From: Pseudomonas sp. S35
GTDB lineage: Bacteria > Pseudomonadota > Gammaproteobacteria > Pseudomonadales > Pseudomonadaceae
DNA length: 64,000 nucleotides
Direction of reading: 5' to 3'
NCBI RefSeq assembly: GCF_009866765.1
Contig: NZ_CP019431.1
Coordinates: 4,402,001 to 4,466,000, forward strand
The notes beneath the pieces are model-generated. The model was not told the origin of the DNA. It worked only from the letters and a program-made list of their open reading frames with translations, and ran no database searches. Below, one piece after another: positions 17,000-40,908 of this stretch. A program made the translations under genes and the position numbers. The stretch's first letter is position 1; every line of letters starts with the position of its first letter.

Positions 17000-17075
17000 T
17001 GGCGTCCCCTAGGGGACTCGAACCCCTGTTACCGCCGTGAAAGGGCGGTGTCCTAGGCCACTAGACGAAGGGGAC
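17000..17075 (-). tRNA. tRNA-Glu (TTC), copy 1
   Basis: 76 bases including an encoded CCA. The minus strand begins GTCCCCTTCGTCTAGTGG and has the anticodon stem CCGCC/GGCGG with loop CTTTCAC (anticodon TTC), then the T arm GGTTCGAGTCC. It is identical to the copy at 17283-17358. Confidence 0.97.
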
Positions 17076-17156
17076 ACAAACCTTCTATACAACTGATCAG
17101 CGCTGAGAACTGATCGATTCAAGGACGGTGTGGCCAGAACCTTGAACCTGTAAAAT

Positions 17157-17232
<76 letters not shown>

Positions 17233-17282
17233 GGATTTTTCGCCTCGCGGCGCAGCAGACCTTTCGAGCTGCTTGTTGAAAC

Positions 17283-17358
17283 TGGCGTCCCCTAGGGGAC
17301 TCGAACCCCTGTTACCGCCGTGAAAGGGCGGTGTCCTAGGCCACTAGACGAAGGGGAC
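17283..17358 (-). tRNA. tRNA-Glu (TTC), copy 2
   Basis: Same 76-base sequence as 17000-17075. The spacers after both Glu genes are also nearly identical, so the Ala-Glu unit was duplicated in tandem (period about 280 bases). Confidence 0.97.
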
Positions 17359-17436
17359 AAAACCTTCTGCACAACTGATCAGAGCTGAGTTCTGATCGAT
17401 TCAAGGACGGTGTGGCCAGACCTTGAACCTGTAAAT

Positions 17437-17512
<76 letters not shown>

Positions 17513-25592: not shown

Positions 25593-25691
25593 CGCCGAGC
25601 CCTCACGGGCTCGACAGCTCCCCCCAACGAGGCGGTTATATGCGTTCCCGCCTCGTTTGACGCTCCCCCTGGGCAACGCGATCGACTACCA

Positions 25692-25868
25692 TACCGCCGC
25701 CGGTTCCCCCACGGGACTAATAGGGAATTCGAAACGCCGCCCACGGCGCCAATCGAAACTGCCCCCGCAACTGTAGGTGCTGAGCCTGCTCCTTAACGCC
25801 ACTGGACCCTGTCCGGGAAGGCCGGAGCGTGGCGACGACGCATCAGTCAGGAGACCTGCCGGCCCAGC
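25692..25868 (+). promoter_or_regulatory. Cobalamin riboswitch
   Basis: The conserved order of the AdoCbl aptamer is present: GCCGGTTC, CTAATAGGGAA, the B12 box CTGCCCCCGCAACTGTA at about 25758-25774, CCACTGGACC, CCGGGAAGG, then CAGTCAGGAGACCTGCC at about 25844-25860. It lies 125 bases upstream of the importer operon, so vitamin B12 is expected to repress that operon. Confidence 0.95.
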
Positions 25869-25992
25869 ACAATCACTAACCGGCGGGGTGTCCGGGAAGG
25901 ACATCCTTGCCTGCCCGACCGGCAGCGTTCGAGGGCGTATTTCCGAGCCGTACTGCCCCTGCTTCACGTATGGTTCAAACGGAGATCGCCCC

Positions 25993-36002: not shown

Positions 36003-36232
36003 AAGGTTGCCCGGTCGCCGACATCTCGGTGATCGGGTTTAGTAGCCTGAGTTTGGGTATCTATAAGTGCATGAGCGTCATCAATCAGACATCGCGTCTG
36101 TACTTGATGGTGGCTGTACGCAGGGCGCCTTCGGGCGCGCCGGCTTTAGATATCCACCGGTCTACTAACCTGCGTACAGCTGCCACCCACCGTTTAGTAG
36201 CGGGAAGTGGCGGCCCAATTCAGGATATCTTT
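36003..36232 (+). ncRNA. Structured leader RNA with three mutually pairable boxes, upstream of the DUF6124 gene
   Basis: About 230 bases of folded potential: CCGA-cat-TCGG-type hairpin at 36018-36030; CATCAA..CAGAC-atcgc-GTCTG..TTGATG at 36079-36109; a long stem pairing 36109-36124 with 36169-36187 (three-base bulge) capped by GCGCC-TTCG-GGCGC. Box A (36037-36046) and box C (36192-36201) share GTTTAGTAGC. Box B (CTACTAA, 36162-36168) can pair with either. The phase that continues into the next gene is open throughout. The layout recalls the seqA/seqB/seqC elements of P4-type phage immunity RNA. The RNA and its function are inferred. Confidence 0.6.
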
Positions 36233-36472
36233 ATGCTTAATGTCACACCGGATTCAACCACCCTCTTCACCGTCGCCCCCGACGCCAGCAACGAAACCCT
36301 CATCACCAACAGCTACGAGACCTTCACGTCCGTCAGCACCTTGCTGCTCGACTTATCCGAAGACCTCAACGGCAAACACCGCGACATTGCGCTGGCGATT
36401 CACCAACTGAGTGAATTGGGCGTACTCATGACCGCCAAATTGCTCGACCGCGAAGTGCCTCGCCCCGGCTGA
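36233..36472 (+). CDS. DUF6124-type small protein
   Basis: 79 residues: LFTVAPDASNETLITNSYE, then TLLLDLSEDLNGKHRDIALAIHQLSELGVLMTAKLLD, matching the C-terminal pattern of the Pseudomonas small-protein family DUF6124 (formerly DUF3077). It is shorter than usual at the N-terminus. AGGA lies seven bases before the ATG. Function unknown. The reading frame is open back to 36029 through the structured leader, so a longer product is possible. Confidence 0.72.
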   Translation: MLNVTPDSTTLFTVAPDASNETLITNSYETFTSVSTLLLDLSEDLNGKHRDIALAIHQLSELGVLMTAKLLDREVPRPG

Positions 36473-36756
36473 TACCGGGCCCTTCAATGCGCTAGCATCA
36501 ACGCTCGCCGCGTCGCTGTAAGGCATACAGCGATTCGGCGAGTTAGGTTTTGACAGACTTGATAGATGATCATGGCCGCGACCTATAGGAAGGGTAGGTA
36601 AGGAGTGAAATCACTACGGGGCCTACATGGTGAAGTTGTTAGCCGCTAAGGACCTGCTTCCGGCCAAAAGCGGACCTCAATGAGCAATACAAGAAGTAGC
36701 CATCGCGTAGATCTTGTCCCCTTGCCAACCAAGCACCGTGGAGATACTGTCCACTT
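36473..36756. other. Intergenic region before the attenuator
   Basis: 284 bases without a supported gene. A 20-base palindrome-like element CTGCTTcCGGCCAAAAGCGG at 36654-36673 recurs in similar form at 37482-37501 beyond the hydrolase gene. TTGCCA (36722) and GATACT (36743) are a weak, closely spaced promoter candidate for the leader peptide. Confidence 0.4.
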
Positions 36757-36816
36757 ATGAATCAGCTACGTATTGCCTCGACCACCACTACCACGACCGC
36801 CCGAGGCGGGTCGTGA
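36757..36816 (+). CDS. Six-threonine leader peptide
   Basis: A 19-residue frame MNQLRIASTTTTTTARGGS ending in TGA. Six consecutive threonine codons (ACC ACC ACT ACC ACG ACC, 36781-36798) end exactly in the first strand of a hairpin. GGAG lies 13 bases upstream of the ATG. The composition resembles the E. coli thr operon leader. Expected role: the ribosome stalls here when charged tRNA-Thr is low. Confidence 0.72.
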   Translation: MNQLRIASTTTTTTARGGS

Positions 36817-36885
36817 GAGGTGTCGTGAGCCAATAACGCACGAACTTCAAAGGCCCGCCAGTGATGGATAGGGCCTTTTCTTTTG
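36793..36885 (+). promoter_or_regulatory. Transcription attenuator (1:2, 2:3, 3:4 hairpins)
   Basis: Strand 1 ACGACC-GCC (36793-36801) pairs with strand 2 GGC-g-GGTCGT (36805-36814). Strand 2 GGCGGGTC (36805-36812) can instead pair with strand 3 GGCCCGCC (36852-36859), 8 bp with one G-U. Strand 3 region AAAGGCCC (36849-36856) pairs perfectly with strand 4 GGGCCTTT (36871-36878), followed by TTTTCTTTT. Antiterminator and terminator are mutually exclusive because both use 36852-36856. Located 38 bases before the hydrolase start. Confidence 0.78.
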
Positions 36886-36922
36886 CCCTTGTGTCGCTGG
36901 TCCAAACGCAAGGAAAAGCACA

Positions 36923-37441
36923 ATGCATGCACTGTTGATTCTCGATATGCAGGTTGGATTGTTTCATGGCCCAGATAAACCATGGGCTGGTGAGGCGCTG
37001 CTAAATACGTTGAATAGTCTGTTGAATAAAGCCCGCAGGGCCGGCACGCCAATTTTTCTTGCTCGCCACGTGGGGCCGCCCGGCTCGCCTATCGAACCTG
37101 GAAGCCCGTTGACGCAACTGGTGCAGGAACTGTTGCTGCAAGGCGACGAAGTGATTTTCGAAAAAAGCCGACCTAACGCTTTCGCCATGACTGACCTGGC
37201 CGATCGACTAAAGGCTTGTGGTTCTCAAGGCGTGGTTATTGCCGGAATGAAGACCCAGTATTGTGTCGATAGCACCTGCCGCGCCGCACGAGATCTTGGA
37301 TTCGATGCAGTGCTGATCGCCGATGGTCATACCTGCACTGACACTCCCGCATTGAAGGCCGAAAGTATCGTCGCTCATCACAATGCAACCCTGGCGGGCC
37401 CATTCTGTCGTGTCGTTCACGCTGAGGACTGGCATTTCTAA
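36923..37441 (+). CDS. Isochorismatase-family cysteine hydrolase
   Basis: 172 residues. The catalytic triad is visible: Asp in LLILDMQVGLF (residue 8), Lys in EVIFEKSRPNAF (about residue 79) and Cys in GMKTQYCVDSTCRAARDLG (about residue 114). Members hydrolyse amides or C-O bonds of small molecules such as nicotinamide or carbamoyl sarcosine; the substrate here is unknown. AAGGAAAA precedes the ATG. Expression should be set by the threonine attenuator upstream, which is unusual for this family. Confidence 0.88.
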   Translation: MHALLILDMQVGLFHGPDKPWAGEALLNTLNSLLNKARRAGTPIFLARHVGPPGSPIEPGSPLTQLVQELLLQGDEVIFEKSRPNAFAMTDLADRLKACGSQGVVIAGMKTQYCVDSTCRAARDLGFDAVLIADGHTCTDTPALKAESIVAHHNATLAGPFCRVVHAEDWHF

Positions 37442-37632
37442 CCTGCATTGATAGGTCGACTCAAGTTCTGGGTCGATCTGTCCGCTTTGGCCAAAAAGCG
37501 GTCATACGACGCTTCTACAAAGCGGGGCAATTCAATTGATGAGGTTGATTTTGCTATTGGATAAATTTACAACTCTATCGTGCACTGATTAAAATAAAGT
37601 AAAATTTAAAAAACCATGCCTTAGGTGAGCTC

Positions 37633-39534: not shown

Positions 39535-40908
39535 GAGACTGTCAGAAATTTTGTGTTCGGGCATAACATGTAGCTAGAGGTGCATCTATGCCGACCAAAA
39601 AGAAGCCCGCCCATGCAGCAGCGAGGGAGTTACCCTCGATTCCCCAAGAGCTGATCGAGCAGTTTGTTAAAGGCCCGATGAGCGCCGAAGCCATTCAAGA
39701 CGCGTCCATGGCGTTCAAGAAGGCTCTGATCGAGCGCGCGCTAGGTGCCGAGCTGGGTCACCACCTTGGTTATCCTCAGGGCGCGGAGCGCCCTGAGGAG
39801 TCGACCAATCAGCGCAATGGCAAGAGTGGCAAAACGGTTCTTACCGACGATGGGCCGCTTCGCCTGGATATCCCCAGAGACCGCGATGGTAGCTTCGCCC
39901 CGATCCTGATTCCCAAGCACGAACGCCGTTTTACAGGCTTCGACGACAAGATAATTGCCATGTACGCCCGGGGTATGACGGTGCGTGAGATCCGCGCTTT
40001 TCTGTCTGAGCAGTATGGAACTGACGTGTCCCATGACTTCATCAGCTCAGTCACCGATGCCGTAATGGAAGAAGTCGGCTCTTGGCAGCAGCGCCCCCTG
40101 GAGCCTATGTACCCGGTCATCTTCTTTGATGCGCTACGGGTCAAAATCCGGGACGAGGGGTTAGTGCGCAACAAGGCCATTTATCTGGCGCTGGGCGTAT
40201 TACCCGATGGCACACGTGACATTCTGGGGATCTGGATTGAGAGCACCGAGGGCGCCAAGTTTTGGATGAAGGTCTTCAACGACCTCAAAACGCGTGGGGT
40301 AGAAGATGTTCTAATCGCCGTCACGGATGGCCTTAAAGGGATACCGGAGGCTTTGGGAGCGGTTTTTCCTGCCACGACGCTGCAAACCTGCATCGTGCAT
40401 CTGATCCGCAACAGCTTGGACTATGCCGCTTGGGATAAACGTCGGGCATTGGCCAAAGCCCTCAAGCCGATCTACCAGGCGATCAATGCGGACGTGGCCG
40501 AGCAAGAGCTCAACGCCTTTGAAGCGGGGCCTTGGGGTAAGCAGTATCCGACAGTAGTTGCTGCATGGCGTCGCGCCTGGGATCGGGTTATACCGTTTTT
40601 TGTATTCCCGGCGGGTATCCGAAAAGTGGTCTACACGACCAATGCCATCGAAAGCATCAACGCTCAGCTACGAAAGATTATTAAAACCCGTGGGCACTTC
40701 CCGACCGACGATGCGGCAACGAAGCTGATCTGGCTGGGACTACGAAATATCACGGCTAACTGGGGGCACCCGGCGCATGATTGGAAAGTGGCAATGAATC
40801 AGTTTGCGATTCTTTACGGAGACCGATTTACCAGACCGAGCTGGTAAAACAACGGCCTGCCTGACGGCAGGCCCTAACCAGCCCGAACACAAAAAAACTG
40901 ATACTCCC
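39535..40908 (+). mobile_element. IS256-family insertion sequence, copy 1 (1374 bp)
   Basis: Left end GAGACTGTCAG..TTTTGTGTTCGGGC and right end GCCCGAACACAAAAAAACTG..CTCCC form imperfect 28-bp terminal inverted repeats sharing TTTTGTGTTCGGGC. An 8-bp target duplication ATAGCGAC flanks it (39527-39534 and 40909-40916). The whole element appears identical to 47015-48388, so at least one copy moved recently. Confidence 0.95.
39588..40847 (+). CDS. IS256-family transposase, copy 1
   Basis: 419 residues of the Transposase_mut type. DDE acidic residues fall in FFDALRVKIRDEG, AVTDGLKGIPEA and YTTNAIESINAQLRK; HLIRNSLDY is the family hallmark before the last domain. The frame is intact, so transposition should be possible. 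The ATG follows the left inverted repeat by about 25 bases. Confidence 0.96.
   Translation: MPTKKKPAHAAARELPSIPQELIEQFVKGPMSAEAIQDASMAFKKALIERALGAELGHHLGYPQGAERPEESTNQRNGKSGKTVLTDDGPLRLDIPRDRDGSFAPILIPKHERRFTGFDDKIIAMYARGMTVREIRAFLSEQYGTDVSHDFISSVTDAVMEEVGSWQQRPLEPMYPVIFFDALRVKIRDEGLVRNKAIYLALGVLPDGTRDILGIWIESTEGAKFWMKVFNDLKTRGVEDVLIAVTDGLKGIPEALGAVFPATTLQTCIVHLIRNSLDYAAWDKRRALAKALKPIYQAINADVAEQELNAFEAGPWGKQYPTVVAAWRRAWDRVIPFFVFPAGIRKVVYTTNAIESINAQLRKIIKTRGHFPTDDAATKLIWLGLRNITANWGHPAHDWKVAMNQFAILYGDRFTRPSW

Follow-up and report, generated by a model that had tools for sequence, protein, structure and literature searches.

A stretch of 129 nucleotides in front of a small hydrolase gene of Pseudomonas sp. 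S35 is, judging from its sequence, very probably a ribosome-mediated transcription attenuator that senses the supply of threonyl-tRNA through a leader peptide. The stretch lies in what we call the window, which is the whole 64,000-nucleotide piece of DNA that was analysed. A short frame with a run of Thr codons is followed by mutually exclusive RNA helices, an intrinsic terminator and the hydrolase gene. This anatomy is conserved among relatives, the Thr codons are exchanged synonymously, and the inner 2:3 and the 3:4 helices co-vary between leaders. The initial annotation had read the region as an attenuator of the thr/his type, a reading supported by the conservation of the Thr codons, by the co-varying helices and by the non-biosynthetic gene downstream. 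The analysis adds to it an inner antiterminator helix, a probable leaderless start, a further helix beyond the T-tract, a sister family of Met-codon leaders before GNAT acetyltransferases, and genomic contexts that shift from copy to copy.

The leader and its alternative structures

On re-reading the sequence, the leader frame, the hairpins and the T-tract were all where the initial annotation had placed them. The leader ORF (36757-36816, plus strand) is made up of 19 codons, MNQLRIASTTTTTTARGGS, ends at the stop codon TGA (36814-36816) and has no Shine-Dalgarno (SD) sequence upstream. Its six consecutive Thr codons, ACC ACC ACT ACC ACG ACC at 36781-36798, overlap strand 1 and hence the hairpin 1:2, as had been claimed, whose core (ACGACCGCC...GGC-G-GGTCGT, 36793-36814, plus strand) is seen in the sequence and in folding. 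Strand 2 (36805-36812, GGCGGGTC) can instead pair with strand 3 (36852-36859, GGCCCGCC) over the expected 8 bp, one of them G-U, and this forms the outer helix of an antiterminator that is predicted by folding to span 36805-36859 on the plus strand. Nested within it is an inner helix, GAGGUGUCGUG (36817-36827) with CACGAACUUC (36839-36848), on the same strand, to which both folding and partner swaps point. The terminator, 3:4 (36849-36884, plus strand), is the perfect 8-bp helix that had been described, made up of AAAGGCCC (36849-36856) with GGGCCTTT (36871-36878), with an apical CCA-GUGA-UGG loop and the T-tract TTTTCTTTTG, and it too is indicated by folding and swaps. The T-tract ends 38 nt before the hydrolase gene. 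A simple terminator scan of the window, with a loop limit of 8, did not return this terminator, whose loop is 14.

Two further pairings lie partly or wholly beyond the T-tract. The 3' part of the terminator, comprising its loop and strand 4 (36858-36874), is complementary to strand 5, GCCCUUGUGUCGCUGG (36885-36900), so that the 4:5 element covers 36858-36900 on the plus strand, as indicated by swaps. A possible hairpin 5:6 (CCUUGUGU/ACGCAAGG, 36887-36913, plus strand) may hide the SD sequence of the hydrolase, whose ribosome-binding site is at 36910-36914, although we propose this element only tentatively.

The region thus shows two hallmarks of the ribosome-mediated attenuator class: the codons of a single amino acid, clustered in a short ORF over strand 1, and mutually exclusive 1:2, 2:3 and 3:4 helices, the last of them an intrinsic terminator. 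Of 200 dinucleotide shuffles of the 129-nt RNA, 199 fold less stably than the native sequence (z -3.08). On both strands of the 6.6-Mb genome there are 5 places where six ACN triplets follow one another, the leader among them, while the reversed control, runs of CAN triplets, gives 173 sites in the same genome.

Predicted promoter and proposed mechanism

A sigma-70 promoter is predicted directly upstream of the leader by a promoter-box search (36722-36750, plus strand), with TTGCCA at 36722-36727, a spacer of 17 nt and TACTGT at 36745-36750; a stricter promoter scan did not pick it up in the window. When the best pair of -10 and -35 boxes was sought upstream of related leaders, with a gap of 16-18 nt and the -10 box permitted to end 3-12 nt before the ATG, in 75 of 78 distinct Thr leaders the -10 box ended 6-7 nt from the ATG, and in 74 of the 78 the -35 box agreed with TTGACA at 4-6 of its 6 positions. 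The Met-family leaders discussed below have the same spacing of the -10 box, 6-7 nt, in all 36 collected. An SD-like AGGA upstream of the leader ATG was found in none of the 78 Thr leaders and in 2 of the 36 Met-family leaders. The simplest explanation of a -10 box this close to the ATG together with the missing SD is a leaderless mRNA, and the leader transcript is therefore probably leaderless, with its predicted start at or next to the ATG. A leaderless start is also stated for the trpL leader of S. meliloti (PMC7298713).

In the mechanism that we propose, RNA polymerase would start at or beside the leader ATG, and a ribosome would load on the leaderless 5' end and reach the Thr codons. If threonyl-tRNA were ample, this ribosome would proceed to the stop codon and cover strand 2, which would allow 3:4 to pair and transcription to end near 36880. 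If threonyl-tRNA were scarce, the ribosome would stall on the Thr codons over strand 1, and strand 2 and the inner arm would be able to pair with strand 3 as a two-part antiterminator. Polymerase would then read through into the hydrolase gene, which would in this way be induced by low threonyl-tRNA.

Conservation of the Thr leader

Among the hydrolases most closely related to that of the window in 57 related genomes, a Thr-rich leader and the terminator precede 10 of 11 (9 of 10 when the window's own copy, L001, is left out; the other ten proteins are 53-74% identical). The exception, L003, has a decayed leader and keeps a terminator remnant alone. The leader-terminator arrangement was not found at 19 more distant hydrolases of at most 39% identity (L012-L030), one of which, L030, has a Thr-containing ORF with the terminator absent. 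A search of named-species genomes, in which the best 80 of 267 hydrolase relatives were retained, gave a Thr-rich leader (at least 4 Thr in 8 codons, at most 260 nt away) at 77 of the 80 loci. The three exceptions differ in kind: in L060 the hydrolase match begins at residue 19 of a gene truncated at its 5' end, L078 keeps the hydrolase and the hairpin strands with the Thr run deleted, and L100 has lost the leader. An alignment across Pseudomonas had been suggested as a check on the attenuator, and it speaks for it in that Thr codons are kept at 77 of 80 loci and helices co-vary, and against it in that L078 and L100 retain the hydrolase without the Thr run.

As the 57-genome and 80-locus sets overlap (L002/L089, L004/L103), distinct ORFs were counted. 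The Thr criterion was passed by 87 of 91 loci, and these 87 leaders reduce to 72 peptides and 78 distinct ORFs. In the latter, the six run columns are 90, 92, 87, 90, 95 and 100% Thr, figures computed after selection for Thr, with the last column's 100% following from the choice of anchor. Three to four different Thr codons are used in every one of these columns, which implies that it is the residue, and not the DNA, that is kept. The length of the run varies, with nine Thr in L077 and seven in L071, and the ends of the leader peptide differ among clades. The variable length is what might be expected if an ACC repeat had fortuitously come to lie before a terminator, but such an artefact is contradicted by the alignment and is almost inconceivable in view of the synonymous codon diversity, the co-variation, the mere five such runs in 6.6 Mb and, as the strongest argument against a chance origin, the conservation of the leader.

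Partner exchange and ribosome modelling

The isolated segment from strand 2 to strand 3 folds as the antiterminator in 37 of 37 diverse leaders. RNAalifold on MAFFT alignments recovered four antiterminator pairs only, and neither the inner helix nor the SD hairpin. Since the register varies from clade to clade, which defeats RNAalifold on alignments, we adopted a swapped-partner test, in which the duplex energy of the true partner arms is compared with that of arms exchanged between leaders, kinship not being corrected with a tree. In the main set of 28 hydrolase leaders less than 90% alike, from which L051 was dropped, none of 5000 swaps was as good as the true partners for the inner 2:3, 3:4, 4:5 or 5:6 helix, whereas all five control pairs were no better than swaps. 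With 12 leaders less than 80% alike, the corresponding counts for these four helices were 0, 3, 1 and 2 of 5000. The signal was weaker in five very different leaders, at 52, 241, 370 and 275 of 5000, where one control pair reached 408 of 5000, on par with 4:5. For the outer 2:3 helix, true partners did not stand out from swapped ones (151/2000).

Counting by columns gave partial support for the antiterminator. Paired cells made up 77.7% (reached in 0 of 500 shuffles) and the covariation score was matched in 15 of 500, while changes on both sides (252/500) and the number of pair types (425/500) did not stand out. The SD hairpin 5:6 was paired in 78.7% of cells compared with 78.4% in shuffles, and occlusion of the SD was no stronger than with shuffled upstream arms (19/28, p 0.34). 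The 4:5 helix, which joins the 3' arm of the terminator to the sequence beyond the T-tract, requires read-through RNA. There it may hold the ribosome-binding site open and so provide a second, translational layer of control, a suggestion kept tentative because neither the column counts of the SD hairpin nor SD occlusion exceeded shuffles.

Ribosome positions were modelled on 30 leaders by equilibrium folding of the whole RNA, without kinetics, which leaves out of account that 2:3 has the chance to pair before strand 4 is transcribed; treated in this way, the terminator is less probable with the ribosome on the Thr codons than at the stop codon in 27 leaders. For the window leader, its probability is 0.00 with the ribosome stalled on the Thr codons and 0.99 with the ribosome at the stop codon. 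A clear switch, with the terminator below 0.5 when stalled and above 0.5 at the stop codon, is seen in just 10 of the 30, while the terminator dominates in both ribosome states in another 10 and in neither in the remaining 10. It is for this limited share of clear switches that we place our confidence in the attenuator no higher. In the leaders with the terminator dominant in neither state, either the 4:5 helix competes or the strand-4 coordinates miss the clade. The SD of the hydrolase becomes more open on stalling in 27 of 30 leaders, by a median gain of just 0.05.

Genomic context

The promoter, attenuator and hydrolase form a self-contained unit of about 0.8 kb. Its boundaries were drawn by blastn against five close relatives and by an all-against-all comparison of the window and the 80 named loci. 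In the window the unit extends over 36661-37490 on the plus strand, where homology to L031 ends; the two sequences are 95% alike and have this stretch alone in common. The all-against-all comparison gave 460 ordered pairs whose hydrolase regions are at least 88% alike, and in 426 of these the homology is shorter than 1300 bp, with median limits of -208 to +555 from the hydrolase ATG. Judged by these sequence comparisons, the two copies of the unit lie in unrelated surroundings in 426 of the 460 pairs of close relatives. P. frederiksbergensis 36C6 has four loci with the leader (L041, L042, L044 and L075), among which L041 and L042 are identical over 8.5 kb, possibly through duplication or an assembly artefact.

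The window unit carries inverted edge sequences, GGCCAAAAGCGGAC and TGTCCGCTTTGGCC, at 36662-36675 and 37479-37492. The chance expectation for the 14-mer and 12-mer at the edges is about 1.06 and 0.52 per window at the mismatches allowed; both are exact and at the edges. They are a possible clue to how the unit moves. By eye, they resemble the ends at some other copies (L031, L065 and L037).

Several other elements were recorded in the neighbourhood. A C4 antisense RNA (36103-36190; Rfam RF01695, 78.4 bits) lies shortly upstream of a DUF6124 gene (36239-36472), and L002 has a C4 RNA (2655-2742) near its hydrolase too. A transposase-like ORF of 419 aa (39588-40847), IS256/mutator-like by eye, is found about 2 kb 3' of the hydrolase. 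Elsewhere in the window are a cobalamin riboswitch (25684-25877; Rfam RF00174, 103.7 bits) and four consecutive tRNA genes on the minus strand (17003-17512), comprising two equal-score pairs.

A sister family with Met codons

A covariance model built from 37 Thr leaders and run on 298 genomes of the genus gave matches in 171 of them at E ≤ 0.01, and in at least 134 at E ≤ 1e-6 among the matches listed. From these matches 39 loci, mostly secondary hits, were chosen for inspection. Eight are Thr-type leaders before a hydrolase (L174-L180, and L173 with its Thr run deleted), 26 are Met-family leaders before a GNAT acetyltransferase that matches PF00583, and one is a leader remnant beside a transposase-like ORF. 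The remaining four (L145, L153, L157 and L183) are Thr-type leaders without a hydrolase, in which the terminator is present and the start or run altered. One could take them, together with a predicted leaderless start like that stated for S. meliloti trpL (PMC7298713), as a sign that the main product acts in trans, as rnTrpL/peTrpL do, and is either the leader peptide or the attenuated RNA of about 125 nt, with the hydrolase a passenger. The apparent alteration of the start or Thr run belongs to the same four cases. We consider a trans-acting product highly improbable, as the hydrolase is accompanied by the leader in 77 of the best 80 of 267 loci despite changing contexts, and the peptide ends vary by clade.

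The Met-family leader is exemplified by L150 (L150:1001-1129, plus 35 more leaders collected), with the leader MTYIRRMNMMCSSMTAAGGP. In the 36 collected leaders Met stands at codons 9, 10 and 14 in 32, 32 and 33 cases, and at codon 7 in 23. A covariance model made from 25 Met leaders only detects the Thr leader of the window at 50.7 bits (E 1.1e-9), and on this sequence evidence the Thr and Met leaders are homologous. Met and Thr are mixed in the leader of L148, whose GNAT appears broken. At L188 (1498-1628) a GNAT-type leader, MTTQSRMHIIRSSIFAFGGA, has Ile codons (ATT) at the family's Met positions and may be an Ile version or a product of decay.

The 4:5 helix is also favoured in 13 GNAT leaders, where 31 of 5000 swaps were as good; the swap tests of inner 2:3 and of 3:4 were not significant in this set. 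Ribosome positions were also modelled in 14 GNAT leaders: stalling lowered the terminator in 12, with a clear switch in 4, and left the SD more open in 6. A search with the GNAT itself gave 36 matches in 35 of 119 genomes, and among 30 loci retrieved 14 have a Met leader and 16 lack one.

Both kinds of leader extend to other genera of the family: a family-wide search gave matches at E ≤ 1e-5 in 21 of 248 genomes, and these fall in 4 of 19 genera, one of which is that of the window. The 16 loci taken from this family-wide search comprise six Thr-type leaders with hydrolase, seven Met-type leaders with GNAT and three broken copies; outside the window's genus, Thr-type units occur in three genera and a Met-type unit in one. 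Of 26 further hits inspected, weak ones included, 12 proved related and another 12 unrelated; the other two are remnants that keep just the terminator (L207) or just the Thr run (L208). Hits near E 1e-3 are thus mostly false.

The constancy of residues in both families bears on whether the leader is tuned to one amino acid. In a general monitor of slow translation of the ermC type, any ribosome slowdown would expose the antiterminator, and the Thr codons would merely set the stall site. A short leader located over strand 1 suits such a device, as does B. subtilis vmlR, a known case of transcription and translation attenuation of a resistance gene (PMC9226507). A slowdown sensor, however, needs no particular residue, whereas Thr is kept at 87-100% in 78 leaders with free synonymous change and the Met family holds Met at three fixed codons (32, 32 and 33 of 36). 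We regard a general monitor as quite improbable and retain the reading that the leader senses threonyl-tRNA.

The hydrolase and possible functions

The gene downstream of the leader (36923-37441, plus strand, starting at ATG 36923) encodes an isochorismatase-family cysteine hydrolase of 172 aa. It matches PF00857 at 116.5 bits against a cut-off of 27, in agreement with the initial annotation, which had named the controlled gene as a member of this family and not a threonine biosynthesis gene. Residues D8, K81 and C114, which we take to be the Asp-Lys-Cys catalytic triad of isochorismatase-like cysteine hydrolases, are invariant in 11 of 11 aligned sequences. Matches to the NCBIfam models for biuret hydrolase and RutB are weak and far below cut-off, and PADLOC profiles gave no match at E 0.01 for the hydrolase or for one GNAT.

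The fold families of both enzymes often act on small molecules. Our best guess, offered tentatively, is that the hydrolase removes a compound that blocks the charging of tRNA-Thr and that the Met/GNAT unit does likewise for Met. Detoxification is favoured because the units are single-gene, patchy and set in changing contexts, because the leader implies a need that arises when one tRNA is uncharged, and because Met supply is not an obvious role for an acetyltransferase under a Met leader. Alternatively, in a threonine shortage the hydrolase could release threonine, or ammonia for its synthesis, from a carbamoyl or amide compound. Such a supply circuit would suit a fold family that hydrolyses amides, as in the weak biuret hydrolase and RutB matches, and attenuators normally serve the amino acid that they sense; we nevertheless think it unlikely, given that a GNAT acetyltransferase under a Met leader is no obvious source of methionine and that the unit has a patchy distribution, more than one copy in some genomes and unrelated surroundings. 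Supply and detoxification both concern purpose, and either is therefore compatible with the core attenuator mechanism.

Extending detoxification to both families is more speculative. The Pseudomonadaceae might harbour a family of wandering protection units, each pairing one inactivating enzyme with a leaderless attenuator that senses an amino acid, possibly with further codon types, in which any agent that blocks charging is sensed by its effect and then destroyed. The agents that we have in mind, with the same reserve, are synthetase inhibitors or toxic amino-acid analogues. Obafluorin is a candidate target of the Thr unit; this compound, from P. fluorescens, is stated to inhibit ThrRS, and its producers to have a second ThrRS, ObaO (PMC10619133).

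If the units work in this manner, the codon run would name the stress in which an anonymous enzyme is wanted. Isochorismatase-like hydrolases and GNATs are large, poorly assigned families, and the members found here could be tested with compounds that cause a shortage of charged Thr- or Met-tRNA. The units may likewise be a new place to seek aminoacyl-tRNA synthetase inhibitors from soil bacteria.

Relation to known systems

Rfam gave no leader family match at cut-off for the window leader or for six related loci. In open-licence papers, covered by titles and abstract openings among the matches listed and with most subscription papers outside this set, no description of a Thr leader before such a hydrolase was found, and a term search did not find the word isochorismatase in the main text of a paper on premature terminators (PMC2965389). 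The class of ribosome-mediated attenuators is old, and the Thr unit does not belong to the family of thr operon leaders. Control of amino-acid synthesis is the textbook role of amino-acid attenuators. Here their logic is joined, with strong conservation, to single small enzymes outside amino-acid synthesis, and one ancestral leader has exchanged Thr codons for Met codons, or Met for Thr, together with a change of enzyme.

The thr operon leader (Thr_leader, RF00506) was considered as an identity for the window leader and rejected, as it scores 14.5 bits against a cut-off of 55 and the next gene downstream is the hydrolase, with no thrABC. Enterobacterial thrL has a leader peptide with Thr codons, alternative hairpins and a terminator before the gene, and the window has all of these. 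It differs from RF00506 in its probable leaderless start and the extra 4:5 helix, and no homology is evident at 14.5 bits.

The nearest logical precedent for detoxification is the Trp attenuator of an auxiliary, antibiotic-resistant TrpRS gene that was reportedly described by Vecchione and Sello in 2010, a study cited in PMC4787780. In both cases an amino-acid attenuator would switch on protection when charging is blocked, as we propose for the Thr unit. The TrpRS attenuator controls a resistant synthetase, whereas the Thr and Met units control a hydrolase or a GNAT whose protective role is a guess. The trpL leader of S. meliloti has its leader ORF at the 5' end of the RNA, a position predicted for the Thr unit, but it controls trp genes and its start is known, according to the account in PMC7298713. 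The vmlR leader of B. subtilis is tied, in the account of PMC9226507, to translation-inhibiting antibiotics, and it combines transcription and translation attenuation of one protective gene, as is proposed for the Thr unit. The Thr unit would sense an amino acid and not antibiotics, and is likened to vmlR (PMC9226507) by logic, not by homology.
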